Positions 7,531-41,590 are shown, numbered from the stretch's first letter. The stretch is 64,000 nucleotides of DNA from a bacterium (GCA_030431455.1 JAUIJE010000007.1:310001-374000); one strand, 5' to 3'. Notes: generated from the sequence alone by a model not told the origin. Made by a program: numbers and translations.

Positions 7531-8523
7531 TCAGTCGAGGCTGAGCGTGCCCGGGGTCGGCGCGGGGTTGACCACGTACGCGCCGGTGGCGAGGTCGATC
7601 TGCAGCGACTGGTCGGCGGGCGCGCCCCCGTCCACCGACCGCTCGCCCACCGAGGTGCCGTCGGGCATGGTCAGCCGGATCCAGTCTCCGTCGAGGTCGA
7701 ACGCGGGGAGGATGCCGTCGTTGTGATCGGGACCGGCGAACAACACCAGGGCCGCGCCTTGCGCGATGGTCCCGCCGGTGAACGTCCACTTCATCGGGTC
7801 GGCGGGGTCGTCGGACAGCCCCCAGCCGGTGAGGTCGATGTTGTCCCCGCCGACGTTGCTCAGCTCGAGCCACGGCGGGTACGCGCCGGTGCCGTCGTCG
7901 AGGGTGGACTCGTTGTCGGTCATCAGCTCGCTCACGAGGACGGGGACATACCCCGGACATGCGTGGCACAGCACCGGGCCCCCCGTGACGATGAGATTGT
8001 CGTAGGTGGCGGTGGGCGCCCCGTCGACCGGGCCGGTCTCGAGGGTGTACGACCACGTCGGCGGGAAGAACGTCATCGATAGGGAATAGCGGTCCCCGTC
8101 GGTGTCGCCGGTGGCGATGTCGTTCCAGTTGTGGTGGGTGTTTTCGTAGGTGATGTCGTCTTCGAACATCGCCGCGCAGGCGCCCCCGACGTCGACGCGC
8201 AGGGTGTCGCCGGTGTAGATCGCGCTCTCCCCCACCCCGATGGTGTCAAAGACCCGCCGCAGCGATGCCTTCACATCGCCGCCGGTGGACTCGAACCGCA
8301 GCACATGGGTGTCGAAGCCGCCCCCGCCGGCCGGCGCGTCGACGCAATCGCCGTCTCCATCGCCGTCTCCATCGCCGTCTCCATCGCCGTCGCCATCGCC
8401 GTCTCCATCGCCCCCGTCGCCATCACCGGGGCCACCATCGTTGCCGCCGGTGCCGCCATCACACGCCAATGCCCCCGCCAGAGCGAAAAACAGGCCCGCG
8501 ATCCAAAACCACCGTGTCTTCAT
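7531..8523 (-). CDS. lipoprotein with Gly-Asp repeat linker and lamin-tail-like domain
   Basis: 330 residues. A signal peptide ends at the lipobox ALAC (Cys 21); then comes a linker of alternating Gly and Asp encoded by a 12-bp tandem repeat. A middle domain of unknown type follows, and a C-terminal segment (VSELMTDNESTLDDGTGAYP, WLELSNVGGDNIDLTGWGLS) matches the lamin-tail domain pattern common in secreted and surface proteins. Start ATG at 8523 was chosen because it begins the signal peptide. Likely anchored in the outer membrane; role unknown. Confidence 0.8.
   Translation of the reverse strand: MKTRWFWIAGLFFALAGALACDGGTGGNDGGPGDGDGGDGDGDGDGDGDGDGDGDGDGDCVDAPAGGGGFDTHVLRFESTGGDVKASLRRVFDTIGVGESAIYTGDTLRVDVGGACAAMFEDDITYENTHHNWNDIATGDTDGDRYSLSMTFFPPTWSYTLETGPVDGAPTATYDNLIVTGGPVLCHACPGYVPVLVSELMTDNESTLDDGTGAYPPWLELSNVGGDNIDLTGWGLSDDPADPMKWTFTGGTIAQGAALVLFAGPDHNDGILPAFDLDGDWIRLTMPDGTSVGERSVDGGAPADQSLQIDLATGAYVVNPAPTPGTLSLD
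8347..8406. repeat. five 12-bp tandem units encoding the Gly-Asp linker
   Basis: Five copies of ATCGCCGTCTCC, one with a single change (GTCGCC), encode Gly-Asp-Gly-Asp on the minus strand. The unit length is a multiple of three, so copy-number change alters linker length without breaking the frame. Confidence 0.9.
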
Positions 8524-8572
8524 CGTGCACTCCCATTGGACAGCATCCACTCACTTGGGAGGTGTGCCATAC

Positions 8573-30835: not shown

Positions 30836-32503
30836 TCATGACCGATCGGCGTACCGTGTGATCGCCATCGTGAGGGTCGTGGTCCCGTGCGTCTGGGCCA
30901 GGCCCTTTGCTGCTTCCACCCCGGAGCCGCGGGCCAAGGTCGGCCCCAGTTCGGGGTCGAGGGCAACCGCCGCCACCAAGAGCGCCTTGCCCACCGGCGA
31001 GGCGTGGCGCATCAACACCTGAAGGGGCGTGCGCCACTGCTGCAGCAGCGTGGCCGCGCCCTTTTTGATCGGTGGCTTGAGCCGCTTGGCGCGGCGGCCG
31101 AGCTCGGCGTGGTCCGTGGCCAGGTCGAGCAGCTCGTCCAACACCGAAAGCGCCACGTCGACGTGAAAGGTCGCGTCCCGTTTTTGGAGGGCGCTTTTCT
31201 CGAACCGTCCGCGTCGGCGCTGTTTTTTTTGCGCCTCCGACCCCGCCTGCTCCGGCTGGGGACGGTAGAGCGCGAACAACGCCACCACGCTGGGCGCGAG
31301 CCGGTCTGGGATGCCGCCGTGGTCGTCGGCGACCTTGGCCACCCGCGCGGCCTGGTGCACCAGGTCGGCGGCGGTGAGCCGCGGGGCGTCGCTGACCCGC
31401 GGTCCCGCGTTCTTGTTCGCGAAGAACGCGGCCAGGCCACGGTCGACGACCCCCGCGTGGGCCTGGGCCAGGTCGTCGCCGATCAACCGGAGAATCCGGT
31501 CCAACACCGGCCAGGGTTTGGGCGTGGCCCCGCCCTCCCCGACCACCACCGCACCGAGAATGTCGCCGGGGGTGTCGTCGAGGTTGTCCAACAGCGCGCG
31601 ACAGGTCTTTTCCAGCATGCCCATGTGCCGGTCGAACGCCGCCCGGGCCCCGCGCCCCCCCAATGCATCTGTACGCTCGTCGCTGAGCGGGTCGATGCCA
31701 TCGACGATGGCATCGACGAGCGCCGCCCGCGCGGGCTCGTCGAACCCCGCCGCCTTCTGCCGGTGGGCGCGCACGCTGTCGTCATACTCGGCCAAGGTCG
31801 TCGCGGTGGCCACCATGTCACTGACCTGGTGCGCGGCCTGGAGCCAGGCCTGCTGGACGGGGGCGGGCAACAACAGCCCGTTGAGGATGCGGACCATCTC
31901 CTCGGGCTGGGCGGCCGCCGCTTGCCACGATCGCAACCGGCCGGCGGGTGCCTGGGCACTGGTCAGAATGCTGACCAGCGCTTTGATGCGCGGACGCAGC
32001 CACATCCGGTGCTTGAGCGCGATGGCGTGCCGGGCCACCGCCTCGGGCACGCGGCGTTCGGCCAGGGCCGCCTCCAATGCTTCTGTATCGCACAGGGCCA
32101 CGATGCGCTTGGCTGCTTGGTCGGCGGGTATGCCCTGGCCCACGAACAGCTCCGCGAGCTGAACCGGATCGTTGTTCGCGCCGTGGCCAGCCGGCGCGGA
32201 GGCGGCGTTCACTTTGTTCCAGCGGCGCTTGGCGGTGGTCGCGCCCCCTTTGGCCGGGTCGTACCCGAGGGTGAAGCCCATGCGCGCCGCGAACTGTTGC
32301 GCTTGCTGCTTGGACGGCACTTTGACGACCGTGCCGGCGGGGAGCTTGCCGTGCCCGACCTCCGGGTTGAGATCGCCGAGCAGTGGCGCGAGCCGACGGT
32401 CTTTGAAGAGTTTGTGCGCGACGTCGGACAGGGACTCCTCGTTTTGGAGCCGGATTTTGGCCACCTGCGCGGCCGAACCGGAGGACGTCTTGCGCACCGC
32501 CAT
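30836..32503 (-). CDS. LysM-like domain protein, large helical body
   Basis: 555 residues, no signal peptide. Residues about 22-64 (SLSDVAHKLFKDRRLAPLLG, then LPAGTVVKVPS) resemble a LysM module of the kind found in cell-wall-associated and contractile-injection structural proteins. The rest is Ala-rich and helical with no motif I know; a basic KKQRRRGRF patch lies near residue 430. It is 50 bp behind the 32554-33255 gene and probably the second gene of that sigma-54 transcription unit. Function unknown; a structural or wall-binding role is inference. Confidence 0.65.
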   Translation of the reverse strand: MAVRKTSSGSAAQVAKIRLQNEESLSDVAHKLFKDRRLAPLLGDLNPEVGHGKLPAGTVVKVPSKQQAQQFAARMGFTLGYDPAKGGATTAKRRWNKVNAASAPAGHGANNDPVQLAELFVGQGIPADQAAKRIVALCDTEALEAALAERRVPEAVARHAIALKHRMWLRPRIKALVSILTSAQAPAGRLRSWQAAAAQPEEMVRILNGLLLPAPVQQAWLQAAHQVSDMVATATTLAEYDDSVRAHRQKAAGFDEPARAALVDAIVDGIDPLSDERTDALGGRGARAAFDRHMGMLEKTCRALLDNLDDTPGDILGAVVVGEGGATPKPWPVLDRILRLIGDDLAQAHAGVVDRGLAAFFANKNAGPRVSDAPRLTAADLVHQAARVAKVADDHGGIPDRLAPSVVALFALYRPQPEQAGSEAQKKQRRRGRFEKSALQKRDATFHVDVALSVLDELLDLATDHAELGRRAKRLKPPIKKGAATLLQQWRTPLQVLMRHASPVGKALLVAAVALDPELGPTLARGSGVEAAKGLAQTHGTTTLTMAITRYADRS

Positions 32504-33433: not shown

Positions 33434-34897
33434 CTACTTGATGTTGCGAATCGCGTTCATGGCGGAGTTGTGCATGTTGTTGAGCACGTTGCTGAGCGCG
33501 TTCTGCATCTTTTGAAGGTCTTGCGTCATCTTCTTCAACTTCTCCATTTCCATCGCTTCGGAGTACTCGGGGTCTTTGTCCGACTTCTCCCCTTCCTTCG
33601 TCTTTCCGCTGGGCGGGACGCAGCCGCTCGCCTGGAGCGACTGCCGAACCACGGTGGCCCCTTCGCCGGCTTTTCGCTGCGAACCCTGCTGCTTGCCCAT
33701 CTGCTCGGCCATCCCACCCACCGCGTCCAACGCCATGGGCGCCAGGGTATCCATCAGCGGCGCGAGCATCGGGCCCACCTTCGGGATGGCCCCCACCGCC
33801 GCTTTCAGCGCAGGCATGGCCATCGGGAGAACGCTCTTGGCCAAGCCTGCGAGCGCCCCGAGGTTCTCACCCGACATCAGCGCGTTTTGTCCGCCTTGGA
33901 AGGCCGCGCTAAAGGTGTTCATCACCGGGGGGGCACCGGCACCGCCACCGCCACCTGTCTTGTTGGACTTGTCGGTGCCTTTCGACGCCTCGGTGCTGTT
34001 GCTCTTGTTCGCCTCCATGTACGCCATTTGCTGTTTGATTTGCTCCTCTTGGTCCTGGATGAACTTGCACATGAACAGGAACAGCCGGTCCTCGAAGCTC
34101 AAGTTCGGGTTGCGCAGGATGTCTTGCGCCGAGGGCGTCCCACGCTCCGGTTTGCTGGGGGTGAGCACCGGCGGCTTGATCGGCCGGGGCCGATTCGGGC
34201 GGATGGGCCGCAGCGGGCGGCCCGGACGGTGCGGCCGGCCGGGGTGCGGGCACCAGACCCAGTGCCCCTTGGGCTGACCCTTGATCGCCTTGAGGATCAT
34301 GTCCTCGATGCGCGTCTGCAGGGCGCGCCACGGCCCCAGGACCAGCGCCGAACCGGGGAACAGGGTGTAACAGAGGGGATCAAGCGCGCCGCGAACGGCC
34401 CGGTTGAGGTGGATGTCGGCGGAAATCGCGAACCCGACGGGGCCGGGAATGCGGCCACATTGGATTTGGTGGTAGTGGGCGCGTGGCGGGGCCGGAAAGT
34501 GCGGCAAAGCGCAGTGCGCGAGGCCGGTTGAGCCGCCAGCACGGCGGGTCTGGATGCCGGACTTGGAAAAGGCGTCCGCCAGGTCCTTGAGGCCGGCGAG
34601 CGGGGCCGTCGGAATCGGCGTGGCGAAGTTGACGACCGCGCTCACCAGCTCTTTGCCGGGGCCGTTTTCGGGGACGAGACCGATGGCCGACAGCGCGTTC
34701 GACACCGCGGTCCCGGTCGAGGTGGCGTCGAGCAGCTCGGTCGCGCCTTCGACGAGGGTCCCCGTGTTGAAGGCGTCTTCGGCTTCTTTGAGCTCTTTGG
34801 TGACGCCGTCGAGGGCCTTGTCGGCCGCTTTGGCGGCGGCGTTGCTGGCGGCTTTGGCGGTGTTGGCGACTTGGTTGGCGAAGTTGATGAAGGACAT
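33434..34897 (-). CDS. paralogue 1: helical protein with constant ends and variable middle
   Basis: 487 residues. The N-terminal 110 residues are about 80% identical to paralogue 2. Then comes a divergent Pro/His/Arg-rich stretch (PGRPHRPGRPLRPIRPNR), a shared amphipathic block SFEDRLFLFMCKFIQDQEEQ (about 265-290) and a hydrophobic Ala/Gly/Met-rich region (about 330-392). The last 46 residues are identical in both proteins (from DPEYSEAMEMEKLKKM to NSAMNAIRNIK). No signal peptide. The hydrophobic hairpin plus terminal coiled coil recalls type III secretion translocators or rod/needle proteins, but I cannot assign a family. Own sigma-54 promoter and terminator. Confidence 0.7.
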   Translation of the reverse strand: MSFINFANQVANTAKAASNAAAKAADKALDGVTKELKEAEDAFNTGTLVEGATELLDATSTGTAVSNALSAIGLVPENGPGKELVSAVVNFATPIPTAPLAGLKDLADAFSKSGIQTRRAGGSTGLAHCALPHFPAPPRAHYHQIQCGRIPGPVGFAISADIHLNRAVRGALDPLCYTLFPGSALVLGPWRALQTRIEDMILKAIKGQPKGHWVWCPHPGRPHRPGRPLRPIRPNRPRPIKPPVLTPSKPERGTPSAQDILRNPNLSFEDRLFLFMCKFIQDQEEQIKQQMAYMEANKSNSTEASKGTDKSNKTGGGGGAGAPPVMNTFSAAFQGGQNALMSGENLGALAGLAKSVLPMAMPALKAAVGAIPKVGPMLAPLMDTLAPMALDAVGGMAEQMGKQQGSQRKAGEGATVVRQSLQASGCVPPSGKTKEGEKSDKDPEYSEAMEMEKLKKMTQDLQKMQNALSNVLNNMHNSAMNAIRNIK

Positions 34898-34901
34898 GGT
34901 T

Positions 34902-34935
34902 GGACTCCTGTGTGGTGCGGTTCATTCCGCGTTCG
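34902..34935 (-). other. conserved 34-nt leader of paralogue 1
   Basis: Identical base for base to 36656-36689 in front of paralogue 2. It starts one base after the predicted sigma-54 start (34936), contains a small hairpin GCGG-AATGAA-CCGC and ends with the ribosome site AGGAG, so it is effectively the whole 5' leader. Confidence 0.65.
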
Positions 34936-34946
34936 TGCATAGGGAT

Positions 34947-34962
34947 TGCGAGGCCCGTGCCA
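34947..34962 (-). promoter_or_regulatory. sigma-54 promoter of paralogue 1
   Basis: TGGCACG-GGCC-TCGCA on the minus strand, with GG and GC at the required ten-base spacing. Predicted start at 34936, where the conserved leader begins. A TGATTTTGC box lies 25 bp upstream and the 30-bp inverted repeat a further 30 bp away. Confidence 0.8.
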
Positions 34963-35024
34963 AGCGCAGGAGTGTGCCCATGTGGCTGATTTTGCTGCTC
35001 TTTCTAGGGTCCAGGGGGCGGTCA

Positions 35025-35054
35025 GGAGATTTCCGTGCCGCGGATGAAATCTCC
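35025..35054. promoter_or_regulatory. candidate enhancer (UAS) of paralogue 1
   Basis: GGAGATTTC, 12-bp spacer, GAAATCTCC: 9-bp perfect arms. Same arm core, spacer length and distance from the -24 element as the repeat upstream of paralogue 2. It sits about 90 bp before the predicted start, the usual place for a sigma-54 activator site. No T-run follows, so it is not a terminator. Confidence 0.7.
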
Positions 35055-35077
35055 GGTTCCATCCGCGGCACCCGCAC

Positions 35078-35110
35078 AAAAAAGACCCGGCCGCAGGGAG
35101 CGGCCGGGTC
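35078..35110 (-). terminator. intrinsic terminator after second paralogue
   Basis: On the minus strand GACCCGGCCGC pairs with GCGGCCGGGTC (11 bp, 5-nt loop) and is followed by TTTTTT, 22 bp behind the stop of the 35132-36652 gene. Confidence 0.9.
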
Positions 35111-35131
35111 CACGTTCACAGGAGCTCGGTC

Positions 35132-36652
35132 TTATTTGATGTTGCGAATCGCGTTCATGGCGGAGTTGTGCATGTTGTTGAGCACGTTGCTGAGCGCGTT
35201 CTGCATTTTTTGCAGATCTTGGGTCATTTTCTTCAGCTTCTCCATCTCCATCGCCTCGGAGTATTCGGGATCTTTGGCAGATTTCGCCCCGACGGTCTCG
35301 TTTCGCTTCGCCGGACCGGTCCGGCGTGCGGTTTCGTCGAAGTCCCCGCTGCCACCCGCGTAGAAGCGCCGCTCCCGGGGCGAGCTTTTGTCGTCGGCGG
35401 GTTTCATCATTTGCGCCAGCGCGTTGTTCACCAAGGGGTCGGCGCCTTGAAGTGCGCCACCCACGAGGTTCATGGCCACGGGAAGGAGCACGGGCATCGC
35501 GGCGGCGAGGAACGGACCCACGTACGGGATGCCGGCACACGCGGAGCTGAGCATCGGAGCGATGACCGGCGCGAGCACCGAAGCCCCCTGGATGAGCCCC
35601 CCGATTTCCTTCAGCGGAAGCTTGAAGCTGCCTGCGCCTTTGCCGCCATTCAGGCACCCCATCACACCGCCCAGACCCTTGTCTTTGATGGCACCGAACA
35701 ACGCATCCAAGCCTGACACCGCCTGGGGATTGTTCGAGGCGCCGCCAGCGTTGTCGCTGGGCTGCTTCGAACCGTCCGGGCTCGAGGCGTTTTGGCTCTG
35801 CTTCTTTTGCGTGTCCATGTACGCCATCTGCTTTTTGATTTCCTCCTCTTGGTCTTGGATGAACTTGCACATGAAGAGGAACAGCTTGTCTTCAAAGGTG
35901 AGCTTCGGGTCGTTCAAGATGTCTTGGTAGCTCGCGTCGTTCGGGTCCTTCAGGTCCTCGATGGGCTTGGGGTTGGGGTTGGGCTTTTCCACGCCGGGGT
36001 GAGGGTGCGGCAGGGGCTTGAGGTTGACATCGGGCAGCGGGCGCAGCCCCTTCAGCAGAGCTTTGATGAGCCGCTCCATCGCGTCCATGATCATGCGGCC
36101 GGGCGACATCATGATCGGGCAGCCAGGGCCGAACTTGAGGTAGATGTTCATGCCACAGCCGGGGCGCAGGCCGTGGTTGTGCCCAAAGCCGAAGCCGCCG
36201 CCCACGTGAATCCAGCCGTGGGGCCGGTGCACGCGACCGCAGTGAATCTCATTGTATTGCTGTTTCGGGGCGGGGGGTGTGTGGGCCGGGGCCGGGGCGA
36301 GACGACCGCTGGGCATGCCGGCCAGAGCGTCGGCCAGGTCCTTCATGCCCGCGAGTGGCGCGGTCGGAACCGGGGTCGCGAAGTTGACCAAAGCGCTGAC
36401 GATTTCTTTGCCCGGCCCGTTCTCCGGCACGAGGCCAATCGCGGACAGCGCGCTGGTCACGGCGGTCCCGGTCGACGTGGCGTCGAGCAGTTCGGTCGCG
36501 CCCTCGACGAGGGTCCCCTTGTTGAAAGCGTCTTCGGCTTCCTTGAGCTCCTTGGTGACGCCGTCGAAGGCCTTGTCAACAGCCTTGCCGAGGCCGTTGC
36601 CGATGGATTTGCCGGTGTTGACGAGTTGGTTGGTGAAGTTGCCGATGGACAT
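35132..36652 (-). CDS. paralogue 2: helical protein with constant ends and variable middle
   Basis: 506 residues, ATG at 36652 behind AGGAGT. It begins MSIGNFTNQLVNTGKSIGNG and then matches paralogue 1 closely to about residue 110 (DGVTKELKEAEDAFN, GTLVEGATELLDATSTGTAV, GLVPENGPGKE). The middle differs: a Gly/His/Cys-rich segment (HCGRVHRPHGWIHVGGGFG) and a Pro/Asn-rich hinge (KPLPHPHPGVEKPNPNPKP). The shared FEDKLFLFMCKFIQDQEEEI block, a hydrophobic region (about 337-410) and the identical 46-residue tail follow. No signal peptide. Own sigma-54 promoter, IHF site, enhancer-like repeat and terminator. Function unknown. Confidence 0.7.
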   Translation of the reverse strand: MSIGNFTNQLVNTGKSIGNGLGKAVDKAFDGVTKELKEAEDAFNKGTLVEGATELLDATSTGTAVTSALSAIGLVPENGPGKEIVSALVNFATPVPTAPLAGMKDLADALAGMPSGRLAPAPAHTPPAPKQQYNEIHCGRVHRPHGWIHVGGGFGFGHNHGLRPGCGMNIYLKFGPGCPIMMSPGRMIMDAMERLIKALLKGLRPLPDVNLKPLPHPHPGVEKPNPNPKPIEDLKDPNDASYQDILNDPKLTFEDKLFLFMCKFIQDQEEEIKKQMAYMDTQKKQSQNASSPDGSKQPSDNAGGASNNPQAVSGLDALFGAIKDKGLGGVMGCLNGGKGAGSFKLPLKEIGGLIQGASVLAPVIAPMLSSACAGIPYVGPFLAAAMPVLLPVAMNLVGGALQGADPLVNNALAQMMKPADDKSSPRERRFYAGGSGDFDETARRTGPAKRNETVGAKSAKDPEYSEAMEMEKLKKMTQDLQKMQNALSNVLNNMHNSAMNAIRNIK

Positions 36653-36700: not shown

Positions 36701-36716
36701 TGCGAGGCTCGTGCCA
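36701..36716 (-). promoter_or_regulatory. sigma-54 promoter of paralogue 2
   Basis: TGGCACG-AGCC-TCGCA on the minus strand; predicted start 36690. Together with the IHF site at 36733-36745 and the inverted repeat at 36779-36808 it has the complete layout of an enhancer-dependent promoter. Confidence 0.82.
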
Positions 36717-36745: not shown

Positions 36746-36778
36746 TTGCACGAAAATGCGCCCCCGAGCGACCGGCCA

Positions 36779-36808
36779 AGAGATTTCCGTCCCGGGCTTG
36801 AAATCTCT
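36779..36808. promoter_or_regulatory. candidate enhancer (UAS) of paralogue 2
   Basis: AGAGATTTC, 12-bp spacer CGTCCCGGGCTT, GAAATCTCT: 9-bp perfect arms with the same core and geometry as 35025-35054. It starts four bases behind the stop of the aminotransferase gene but has no U-tract, so regulatory use is preferred over termination. Confidence 0.7.
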
Positions 36809-38990: not shown

Positions 38991-41333
38991 CTATTCGGTG
39001 CGCACGCAGTTGGGCGTGAAGTCGTCCAACGGGTCGGCGTCCTCTTCACACTCCAGGCTGGCCCAGCCACCCATGTAGAGCACGAAGTTGTCGTCGATGT
39101 TGGTGCCGTTGAAGGACACCAAGTCGTCGAAGCTCGGGGTGTTGGCCACGCCACCGTTGCCGAGCACGAAGCCGCCGATGTCGAGGTTGTACACCCGGTC
39201 TTCGGTGATCGCGGCCGGCTTCAGGTCGTCGAGGTCGATTTCCGCGCCGGGATCGGCGGCGGTGTACACGTTCCAGTCGCTCAGCCCGTTCGAGAAGTTG
39301 AAGCGGTAGAAGTCCGCGTTCCCGTTGGGGGTGAGGGTGAAGGTGTTCTCGGTGCGGTTGAACGCGCCGCCTTGCAGCTCCACGAACGAGTTCGGGAAGT
39401 TGTTGGTGGCGTCGAGCGAATCGCTCACGTGCACAATGGTGGACTGCGACGCCACCGTCTCTTGGTCGTCCCCGCCGCCGGCGAAGCTGTTGATGTCGAG
39501 ACCGATGGCGATGGTGATGAACTTGTTGCCCTCGAGGCCGTCGTGCGGCGGCGCGTAGTACACCTGCGCTTGGCCATCGTCGGGGGCGATCTCGTCGTCG
39601 GGGAGGTAGTTCAGCACGCCGTCCACCTGGTCGATGTTGTCGCCGTCATCGGGGTCGTCGAGGCCCGCGGTCAAGCCGAGGGGCACGATGCCTTGGCCGG
39701 GCACGATCACACCGGTGAGCAGGATGGCGCCGGTGGCGTACACGTCGTTCTCGCAGGAGCCGTTGCCCCGGTACGCGCCGACGCCGCAGGGCAGCGAGGG
39801 CATGTTGTACTTCACCTGTTGCGACAGCAGGGTGTTCGGCCGGAAGGCGTTGTCACCCTCGTAGGTGTCGAAGTCCCAGGCGCTGTAGGGGATGGGCATG
39901 TCGCCGTTCTGCGTGGGCTTCGGCTTCTCGACGAGGTCGAGGCCGGTGACCACGCCGTGGTCGAACTGCGCGAACAGCGGGAGGATCGCGGTCAGGATTT
40001 GACCGATGTTGACGTCCTCGGACGCGGTGATGCCTTGCACGAGGTCGCCGACTTTGGAGAGCGCGACCCGGCCACCGAGCGCCCACAGGCTGCGCTTGCC
40101 TTCGGCCCCGAGGGCCACGACGTCTTGCTTGATGTCGAGGTCGGAGATCTTGATCGACACACCGGTCGGCAGCGGAACGTTCTGTTCGGTGTTGGTGAAG
40201 CCTTCGATCGGCGGGATGGTGTAGTCGGCGAGCTCACCGATGAGCAGGGTGAAGTCGGTGTCGACGAGCGACGACTCGATGGAGAGACCGGCGAGGCCGA
40301 GCTCGATGTCGCCCTGGGTGGTCACGTCGTCGAAGGTGAAGCGGCCTTTGACGCCCGCGGCGGTGGTCCGCTCGCAGCTGCCACCCTCACAGGTGTGCTC
40401 GGGCACGGGGGCCACGAAGAACGCGAGGTCGATGCCCGCGGGCTCGAGCACGGTCTGCCACACATGATTGTCGGGAAACGCGGACGCGGCCTCGACGGTG
40501 CCGGTGATCTGCGCCGCGGTGAACACCGCGTCGCCGTTGGTGCCGGTGGTGGCGGTGACCACGGCGGCTTCGCCGGTGATCTTCAGGCCGACGGTCGCGC
40601 CCGCGATGGGGGCGCCGGTGCCTTGCTCGAACACCACGACGCGGAAGCCATCTTGGATGGTCGGGTACACGGTGACGTCGGCGGTGCAGGTCGCGGTGCC
40701 GCTCGTCGCGGTGATTTGACCCGTGCAGACCTCGGGGCCGGCGCAATCGGCGGCCAGAGCGCCGCTGGCGCCGTCGATGGTGCCGATGGCCGCGTCCGCG
40801 GTCCAGGCGAACTGCGCGTTGGGCACGAGCGCGCCGCTGGTCAAGCTGCCGGTCGCGGACGCCACCGTCGTGCTGCCGGCGCGGGCCACGATGTTGCCGG
40901 GCGCCACGTCACATTGGTCGGGCTGGGGGAGCTGGTCGGCGCCGACGCAGCCGGGCACACCCTCGGTGTACACGCAGAACTCACCCGGCTCGCACACCTC
41001 GGCGGGGTTGCCGGGGTCGCACAAGGAATCGGGCACGCACAAGCCACGAATCACGTCACAAATCTCGTTCTCGCCGCAGTCGTCGTCGCCGAGGCAGAAC
41101 ACGGGAATGCACTCGCCGAAGTCGCTGGGACCGGCGCCGGGCGCTTTTTGGCAGATTTCGCCACGGTCGCAGTCGACCGCGCGTTGGCATTGGTCGTCGC
41201 CATCGCCGTCGCCATCGCCATCGCCGTCGCCATCGCCATCGCCGGTCTCACCGGGGCAAGCGACGAGCATCAGCGCGGAGGGCGTGACCGTCAGCAAGAA
41301 GAGGAAGGACAATACAGATCGGATTCTCATCAT
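38991..41333 (-). CDS. large lipoprotein with Gly-Asp repeat linker and Cys-rich region
   Basis: 780 residues. The signal (MMRIRSVLSFLFLLTVTPSA) ends in the lipobox LVAC; a Gly-Asp repeat linker follows. Residues about 45-140 form a cysteine-rich segment (CQRAVDCDRGEICQK, CLGDDDCGENEICDV) of the type found in many myxobacterial surface proteins. Ig-like beta-sandwich material follows (VVVFEQGTGAPIAGATVGL), then a long acidic beta-rich region without a known family. Two adjacent ATGs (41333, 41330) are possible starts. Probably an outer-membrane surface protein. Confidence 0.8.
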   Translation of the reverse strand: MMRIRSVLSFLFLLTVTPSALMLVACPGETGDGDGDGDGDGDGDGDDQCQRAVDCDRGEICQKAPGAGPSDFGECIPVFCLGDDDCGENEICDVIRGLCVPDSLCDPGNPAEVCEPGEFCVYTEGVPGCVGADQLPQPDQCDVAPGNIVARAGSTTVASATGSLTSGALVPNAQFAWTADAAIGTIDGASGALAADCAGPEVCTGQITATSGTATCTADVTVYPTIQDGFRVVVFEQGTGAPIAGATVGLKITGEAAVVTATTGTNGDAVFTAAQITGTVEAASAFPDNHVWQTVLEPAGIDLAFFVAPVPEHTCEGGSCERTTAAGVKGRFTFDDVTTQGDIELGLAGLSIESSLVDTDFTLLIGELADYTIPPIEGFTNTEQNVPLPTGVSIKISDLDIKQDVVALGAEGKRSLWALGGRVALSKVGDLVQGITASEDVNIGQILTAILPLFAQFDHGVVTGLDLVEKPKPTQNGDMPIPYSAWDFDTYEGDNAFRPNTLLSQQVKYNMPSLPCGVGAYRGNGSCENDVYATGAILLTGVIVPGQGIVPLGLTAGLDDPDDGDNIDQVDGVLNYLPDDEIAPDDGQAQVYYAPPHDGLEGNKFITIAIGLDINSFAGGGDDQETVASQSTIVHVSDSLDATNNFPNSFVELQGGAFNRTENTFTLTPNGNADFYRFNFSNGLSDWNVYTAADPGAEIDLDDLKPAAITEDRVYNLDIGGFVLGNGGVANTPSFDDLVSFNGTNIDDNFVLYMGGWASLECEEDADPLDDFTPNCVRTE
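41197..41243. repeat. 6-bp based tandem repeat encoding a Gly-Asp linker
   Basis: Alternating GTCGCC and ATCGCC units encode Gly-Asp repeats on the minus strand right behind the lipobox cysteine, as in the lipoprotein at 7531-8523. Confidence 0.85.
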
Positions 41334-41590
41334 GGGCCTCGTGATGTGGATGTGCATCCCAAACACGGCGCTTCTATCCACACTTCTGCTGGGCTGCAAC
41401 AGAGACGGATAACGCGCCGCGCCAACGTCAGCTTGCCATCCCCCCGAGGGGGCCGCTCGGATCCTCGCGGGCCGCCCTGCCCGCGCCGCAGGGATGCCGG
41501 GGCCGCGTTCGCACGAGCAGGCCGCTGGCGGCGCTTGTCACGGCGTCGTCGACGGGTGTGACGGTCTTGTGACCTGTTGTCGGTGGAGGA

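Follow-up and report, generated by a model that had tools for sequence, protein, structure and literature searches.

Needle-type C-terminal helices on a pair of large Myxococcota proteins, candidate distal components of a non-flagellar type III secretion system

In a 64,000-nucleotide stretch of a 7.7-Mb genome, placed in Myxococcota on the basis of its named relatives (G000; GCA_030431455.1 JAUIJE010000007.1:310001-374000; hereafter the window, with positions counted from its first nucleotide), two genes encode large paralogous proteins, P0001 and P0002, in which constant ends enclose variable middles. Both proteins terminate in a tail that is, with high confidence and by way of intermediate sequences, a homologue of the C-terminal helix of SctF, the subunit that builds the needle in type III secretion systems (T3SS). 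We consider it probable, though well short of certain, that the pair are duplicated, sigma54-controlled substrates of the host's non-flagellar T3SS and form its distal end in the manner of tip or translocator proteins. The two proteins and their parts are placed as follows.

35132..36652, minus strand: P0002, needle-tailed protein of 506 residues, with an ATG start and AGGAG upstream
36323..36652, minus strand: P0002 N-terminal helical module, residues 1-110 (from alignment; helices in the model)
35783..35908, minus strand: P0002 FED helix, residues 249-290 (predicted local distance difference test score, pLDDT, about 90)
35450..35590, minus strand: P0002 hydrophobic helical hairpin, residues 355-401 (model pLDDT about 75; hydropathy 1.79)
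35135..35272, minus strand: P0002 tail helix, residues 461-506, homologue of the SctF C-terminal helix
33434..34897, minus strand: P0001, paralogue of P0002, 487 residues
34568..34897, minus strand: P0001 N-terminal module, residues 1-110 (from alignment)
33983..34108, minus strand: P0001 FED helix, residues 264-305 (from sequence comparison)
33713..33862, minus strand: P0001 hydrophobic segment, about residues 346-395 (hydropathy 1.44)
33437..33574, minus strand: P0001 tail helix, residues 442-487, of the same sequence as the P0002 tail

A preliminary description had proposed such a paralogous pair, and both open reading frames (ORFs) were recovered where it had placed them. For P0002, the ATG at 36652, with AGGAG ahead of it, is the most likely start, and the longer GTG start at 36751 of the mechanical ORF list is less so. 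That description had called the ends nearly or fully identical, which holds for the last 46 residues (46/46) and for the FED block FEDKLFLFMCKFIQDQEEE, where 17 of 19 residues are common to both proteins, but slightly overstates the likeness of the N-termini, where pairwise alignment of residues 1-110 gave 88/110 identities (80%), or 85% over residues 18-96. Its statement that the middles differ was borne out: identity is 33% in the Pro/His/Cys middle and 29% in the linker and hydrophobic part, with many gaps in each. Many identical residues of the ends are encoded by differing codons, 29 of 88 in the N-terminus and, in the tail, 11 of 46; it is therefore the protein sequence that is being kept. 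The DNA of the last 23 codons is 99% identical (33437-33505 in P0001, 35135-35203 in P0002) and the 23 codons preceding them carry 10 silent differences; gene conversion at the extreme end is possible. The pattern of constant ends is not a matter of chance, judging from the recurrence of the FED block and tail in other genomes.

The predicted structure of P0002 has two long, confident helices, at residues 253-290 (FED) and 463-504 (tail), between which sits the hydrophobic helical hairpin at lower confidence; the N-terminal helical module comes first, followed by a disordered Pro/His-rich middle. Both long helices returned when the C-terminal half was modelled alone. The hydrophobic parts are moderate, with a best 19-residue Kyte-Doolittle mean of 1.79 in P0002 and 1.44 in P0001. 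The 110-residue N-terminal module was found only in relatives of the same order (e.g. L027 and L034) and in L032.

The assignment of the tail rests on comparisons made in both directions. By profile-profile alignment, the tail profile matched a set of needle proteins with a probability of 95.8 (E 6.5e-9), and a larger set of FED-family tails did so with a probability of 98.4 and a score of 67.7, in register to the last residue; reversal of the needle profile gave a score of 17.1, and the best of 50 column shuffles reached 15.9. When PF09392, the Pfam family of SctF, was searched in 195 Myxococcota genomes, all 30 match loci retrieved carried this tail. A protein from G135 exceeds the curated PF09392 cut-off as a whole protein, and for the tail protein of L112 the needle family was the sole match in Pfam (E 0.05) and in NCBIfam (E 0.04). 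Against the PDB, the needle-sized members of the family retrieved EsaG-type, MxiH, PrgI and YscF chains, with a best E of 7e-8, and no flagellin. The top chain was deposited as a "needle protein co-chaperone", a name that does not fit, because its sequence scores as PF09392 (61.5 bits). The best PDB match of the FED-family profile was likewise a needle chain (E 0.028). The preliminary description had called the pair undescribed, with no known family that fits, and had expected neither end to match one; through intermediates the C-terminus joins PF09392, and the match is a weakened one that concerns the tail only. The homologues that it had expected outside this genome are many.

Among 58 genomes, the host counted as one of them, 14 have homologues of P0002, recognised mostly through the C-terminus and the FED block, and a tail profile of 45 positions matched in 50 of the 58, with 1-26 copies per genome and six in the host. 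The FED helix (33 residues) was present in 36 of 38 large members tested and the C-terminal helix measures about 44 residues; homologues with both are spread across Myxococcota. Tail proteins fall into three classes. Class 1 comprises proteins of 71-78 residues, encoded in tandem beside SctV in L113, L116 and L120 and singly in L166 and L167. These SctF-like genes lie between SctU and SctV, in Myxococcota T3SS loci of the kind that published accounts would class as needleless:

L113:7594-9189
L166:8727-8942
L167:15862-16077
L116:3007-6050
L120:7181-7865

Class 2 proteins, of 150-250 residues, are often encoded directly ahead of a tetratricopeptide repeat (TPR) gene, with SctI and SctJ genes close by (L112, L114, L057); in the host, L110 with its TPR gene is of this class. 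Class 3 proteins are large and contain a FED helix; the stretch ahead of their tail is glycine-rich or hydrophobic. P0001 and P0002 are of this type. A minimal core of FED helix, linker and tail, about 90 residues long, occurs in L036. A scan of a genome collection with a closer tail alignment gave 13 loci, of which 12 are in metagenome-assembled genomes (MAGs) titled Myxococcales or Deltaproteobacteria and the thirteenth is on a short contig labelled Opitutaceae, possibly misbinned; many of the relatives come from draft MAGs.

The same tail also caps bodies of quite different kinds. Two carry calpain-family peptidase domains above the Pfam cut-off (L184:882-3050 and L179:998-5212) and are candidate T3SS effectors; EF-hand-like proteins of other Myxococcota end in it too, and the FED-type protein of L195 gives weak matches, below cut-off, to NolX and HrpF, which are translocator families. 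Its occurrence on calpain-type, EF-hand-like and NolX/HrpF-like bodies suggests that the tail may serve Myxococcota T3SS more generally as a module for docking or export. Genome G020 (L224-L241) encodes 26 tail-capped proteins, mostly of 500-1400 residues, and the 17 scanned had no Pfam domain; for G020 and G026 taken together, Pfam returned no significant domain in 18 large tail proteins. In scans of the whole family, 5 of 28 members matched PdsO, a glycine-zipper-type hit that was read as composition, and no other family was common to the members; a relation to the type VII secretion system (WXG100) was rejected as a single weak match in one member (E 0.001). Tail and FlhA/SctV family co-occur across genomes (Fisher p 6e-4), which we count as supporting evidence only, since flagellar FlhA is also picked up by the model and the genomes share ancestry.

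Gene order links the tail to secretion. In L055, L113, L163, L166 and L167 a constant order runs SctU, small gene(s), a SycD-like TPR gene, (gene), the tail protein, (gene), TPR, SctV, and the tail protein in this slot varies from 71 to 451 residues: a needle-sized protein of 71 residues, a Pfam-passing one of 233 and a FED-type one of 451. In L113 and L166 the SycD-like gene scores above the curated cut-off for LcrH/SycD; in L055, L163 and L111 it falls below, with LcrH/SycD still the best match. The modular layout had been taken to mean ends recognised by one machine, and the pair had been likened to secretion translocators. Both ideas are supported: the tail is a T3SS needle-type helix, and it caps other T3SS-locus proteins beside SycD/LcrH-type chaperones. 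The host's own T3SS genes are scattered. SctV is on C25 (829 bits against a cut-off of 692, with the FlhA model under its own cut-off there), an SctJ-like lipoprotein on C23, beside a gene resembling the one that follows SctJ in relatives, and an SctU-type gene, of the FlhB/SctU family and separate from the flagellar member, on C10; a TPR-tail-TPR trio (L111) stands alone on C10. By these sequence assignments the host has non-flagellar T3SS genes, namely SctV distinct from FlhA, SctJ and an SctU type.

In relation to SctF (PF09392, TIGR02105; MxiH, PrgI, YscF, EsaG/SsaG), the pair share a homologous C-terminal helix, in register to the last residue, and have needle-sized relatives with that helix in the same gene slot. 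SctF is a helix-turn-helix monomer of about 80 residues, the pair are 487 and 506 residues long with inserts, and SctF has no counterpart to their FED helix, hydrophobic insert or N-terminal module. The tip and translocator proteins (SctA/IpaD, SctE/IpaB, YopB/YopD; HrpF/NolX) may be alike in having a helical core split by an insert, and a hydrophobic segment; in the pair the hairpin is a prediction at pLDDT about 75 and its hydropathy is moderate. In tip proteins a two-helix core carries an insert and the extreme C-terminus attaches to the needle, as is thought to hold for translocators too (PMC4539596). The C-terminus of the pair is of needle type, which suggests docking of the same sort. 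Chaperone genes of the SycD/LcrH type lie beside relatives of the pair, and none is adjacent to the pair itself. We found no sequence match between the pair and the tip or translocator families, and the literature examined describes no comparable needle-type tail for those families.

From the tail homology, the gene context of relatives and the presence of T3SS genes, all drawn from sequence, we infer export, docking and membrane action. The pair, which would lack a Sec signal, would leave the cell by way of the T3SS. Its FED and tail helices would form a needle-like two-helix core interrupted by the hydrophobic hairpin, an arrangement like that of tip and translocator proteins, and the extreme C-terminus would dock on the needle or rod. 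In needles, the fibre core consists of the C-terminal helices, which chaperones hold until export (PMC6455054); this role, together with the core and C-terminal binding of tip proteins, is why we propose docking through the tail and membrane contact through the hairpin. The variable Pro/His/Cys middle and the hydrophobic segment would face outward and touch or enter the target envelope, with P0001 and P0002 serving as interchangeable or mixed distal subunits.

Several observations weigh against this assignment as distal T3SS subunits. The pair lies outside any T3SS cluster, and no SycD-like gene adjoins it in the window, whereas the FED-type relatives L055 and L111 have one. Neither protein alone reaches a family cut-off in Pfam or NCBIfam. 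The P0002 model has a low overall pLDDT of 58, overall confidence was low for the C-terminal-half model too, fold searches with both gave no significant match, and the P0001 hydrophobic segment is weak at 1.44.

The proteins could instead be enlarged needle or filament subunits that polymerise like SctF by way of their FED and tail helices, with the long N-terminal part decorating the filament. The tail does correspond to the fibre-core helix of needles (PMC6455054), one gene slot holds proteins of both 71 and 451 residues, and L036 offers a minimal core; however, the hydrophobic or glycine-rich insert and the 110-residue N-terminal module would not fit easily into the lattice of a needle, and the FED helix bears no similarity to the N-terminal half of the needle (profile-profile probability 1.2), so that we regard this as unlikely. 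Still more improbable is that the pair are cargo or effectors for which the tail serves as a tag for export and docking. The calpain-type and EF-hand-like tail proteins, and the up to 26 diverse large ones in a single genome, fit such a role, but P0001 and P0002 have no enzymatic domain in Pfam or NCBIfam and resemble FED-type proteins located within T3SS operons.

A further reading, in which convergence has made a generic coiled coil needle-like and the pair are unrelated envelope or cytoplasmic proteins, would accord with the short, amphipathic character of the tail and with the noise returned by single-protein searches of Pfam, NCBIfam and the PDB with either protein. We give this very little credence, as reversed and shuffled needle profiles score far lower, independent needle models select the same tails, and the gene slot beside SctV is conserved. 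Export by, or incorporation into, the host flagellum has in its favour a flagellar cluster on C18 and a weak match of one family member to the flagellar rod (E 0.07). Tail genes with export-apparatus neighbours adjoin SctV/SctU/SctI/SctJ-type genes, however, and in the PDB the needle-sized set matches needle subunits best, with flagellin absent, which makes a flagellar role the least credible of these alternatives.

The candidate distal subunits bear on a gap in current accounts. Myxococcota T3SS have been described as lacking SctF, tip and translocon; according to a 2012 phylogeny and to recent papers, the T3SS that myxobacteria use in predation has no needle, tip or translocon, and its effectors are unknown (PMC3459982, PMC10433427, PMC12075869). 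The T3SS* of Myxococcus xanthus (MXAN_2434-2464), described in these papers without needle, tip, translocon or secretin, is likewise a non-flagellar Myxococcota T3SS with LcrH-type chaperones; unlike it as described, the present host has candidate distal parts, and its genes are scattered. Loci similar to that of M. xanthus in G042, G157 and G163 hold SctF-like genes of 71-73 residues. The needle-tail family, which we did not find reported in the accessible literature (most subscription journals not being covered), thus supplies gene candidates for the needle, tip or translocator, and effectors of the myxobacterial T3SS, among them these 71-73-residue genes within Myxococcaceae-type T3SS loci. 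If true, this would change the claim that SctF was lost in the earliest-branching T3SS, and the needle question becomes testable in a laboratory strain. A bolder and more doubtful proposal is that Myxococcota T3SS are not needleless: in a large family of needle-tailed proteins, structural, membrane-active and enzymatic bodies, the last including calpain-type ones, would each be fused to an SctF-type docking helix, and effectors would ride as subunits of the outer end and not only pass through a finished needle, P0001 and P0002 being one such pair.

Around the pair, the window holds predicted control elements and neighbouring genes.

36701..36716, minus strand: sigma54-like promoter TGGCACGAGCCTCGCA, 64 bp ahead of the P0002 start
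34947..34962, minus strand: sigma54-like promoter TGGCACGGGCCTCGCA ahead of P0001
33277..33292, minus strand: third sigma54-like promoter, ahead of the 233-residue gene
36780..36807: inverted repeat GAGATTTC-N12-GAAATCTC, candidate activator site for P0002
35026..35053: inverted repeat GAGATTTC-N12-GAAATCTC, candidate activator site for P0001
32554..33255, minus strand: ORF of 233 residues with a sigma54-like box, probably co-regulated
30836..32503, minus strand: protein of 555 residues with a LysM-like start by eye; homologues adjoin tail genes in L034 and L105

These three are the only strict sigma54-like boxes in the window, and none of 100 shuffles reached three. The inverted repeat occurs just twice in the whole genome, each time 64 bp upstream of a sigma54-like box. 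This combination of a sigma54-like box with a pair-only repeat at equal distance suggests one dedicated activator for P0001 and P0002. The 233-residue ORF had no tail, no family match and no homologue in the searches made. The 555-residue protein, for which Pfam gave no match, is a possible partner of the pair. The pair, the 555-residue protein, rpsT, MurJ and, further on, DnaK are syntenic with the L034 tail locus in a genome of another family, and a MurJ gene, named by sequence likeness, is also near the L041 tail gene in a third family. At L034, the gene adjoining the syntenic tail gene (L034:6873-7901, 342 residues) encodes a protein that resembles the P0001 middle and hydrophobic part, without a FED helix match and without a tail. 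Elsewhere in the window, the ORFs at 38991-41399 and 7531-8550 are lipoprotein-like with long GDGDGD repeats, and similar ones occur in other parts of the genome, at L046 and L176.
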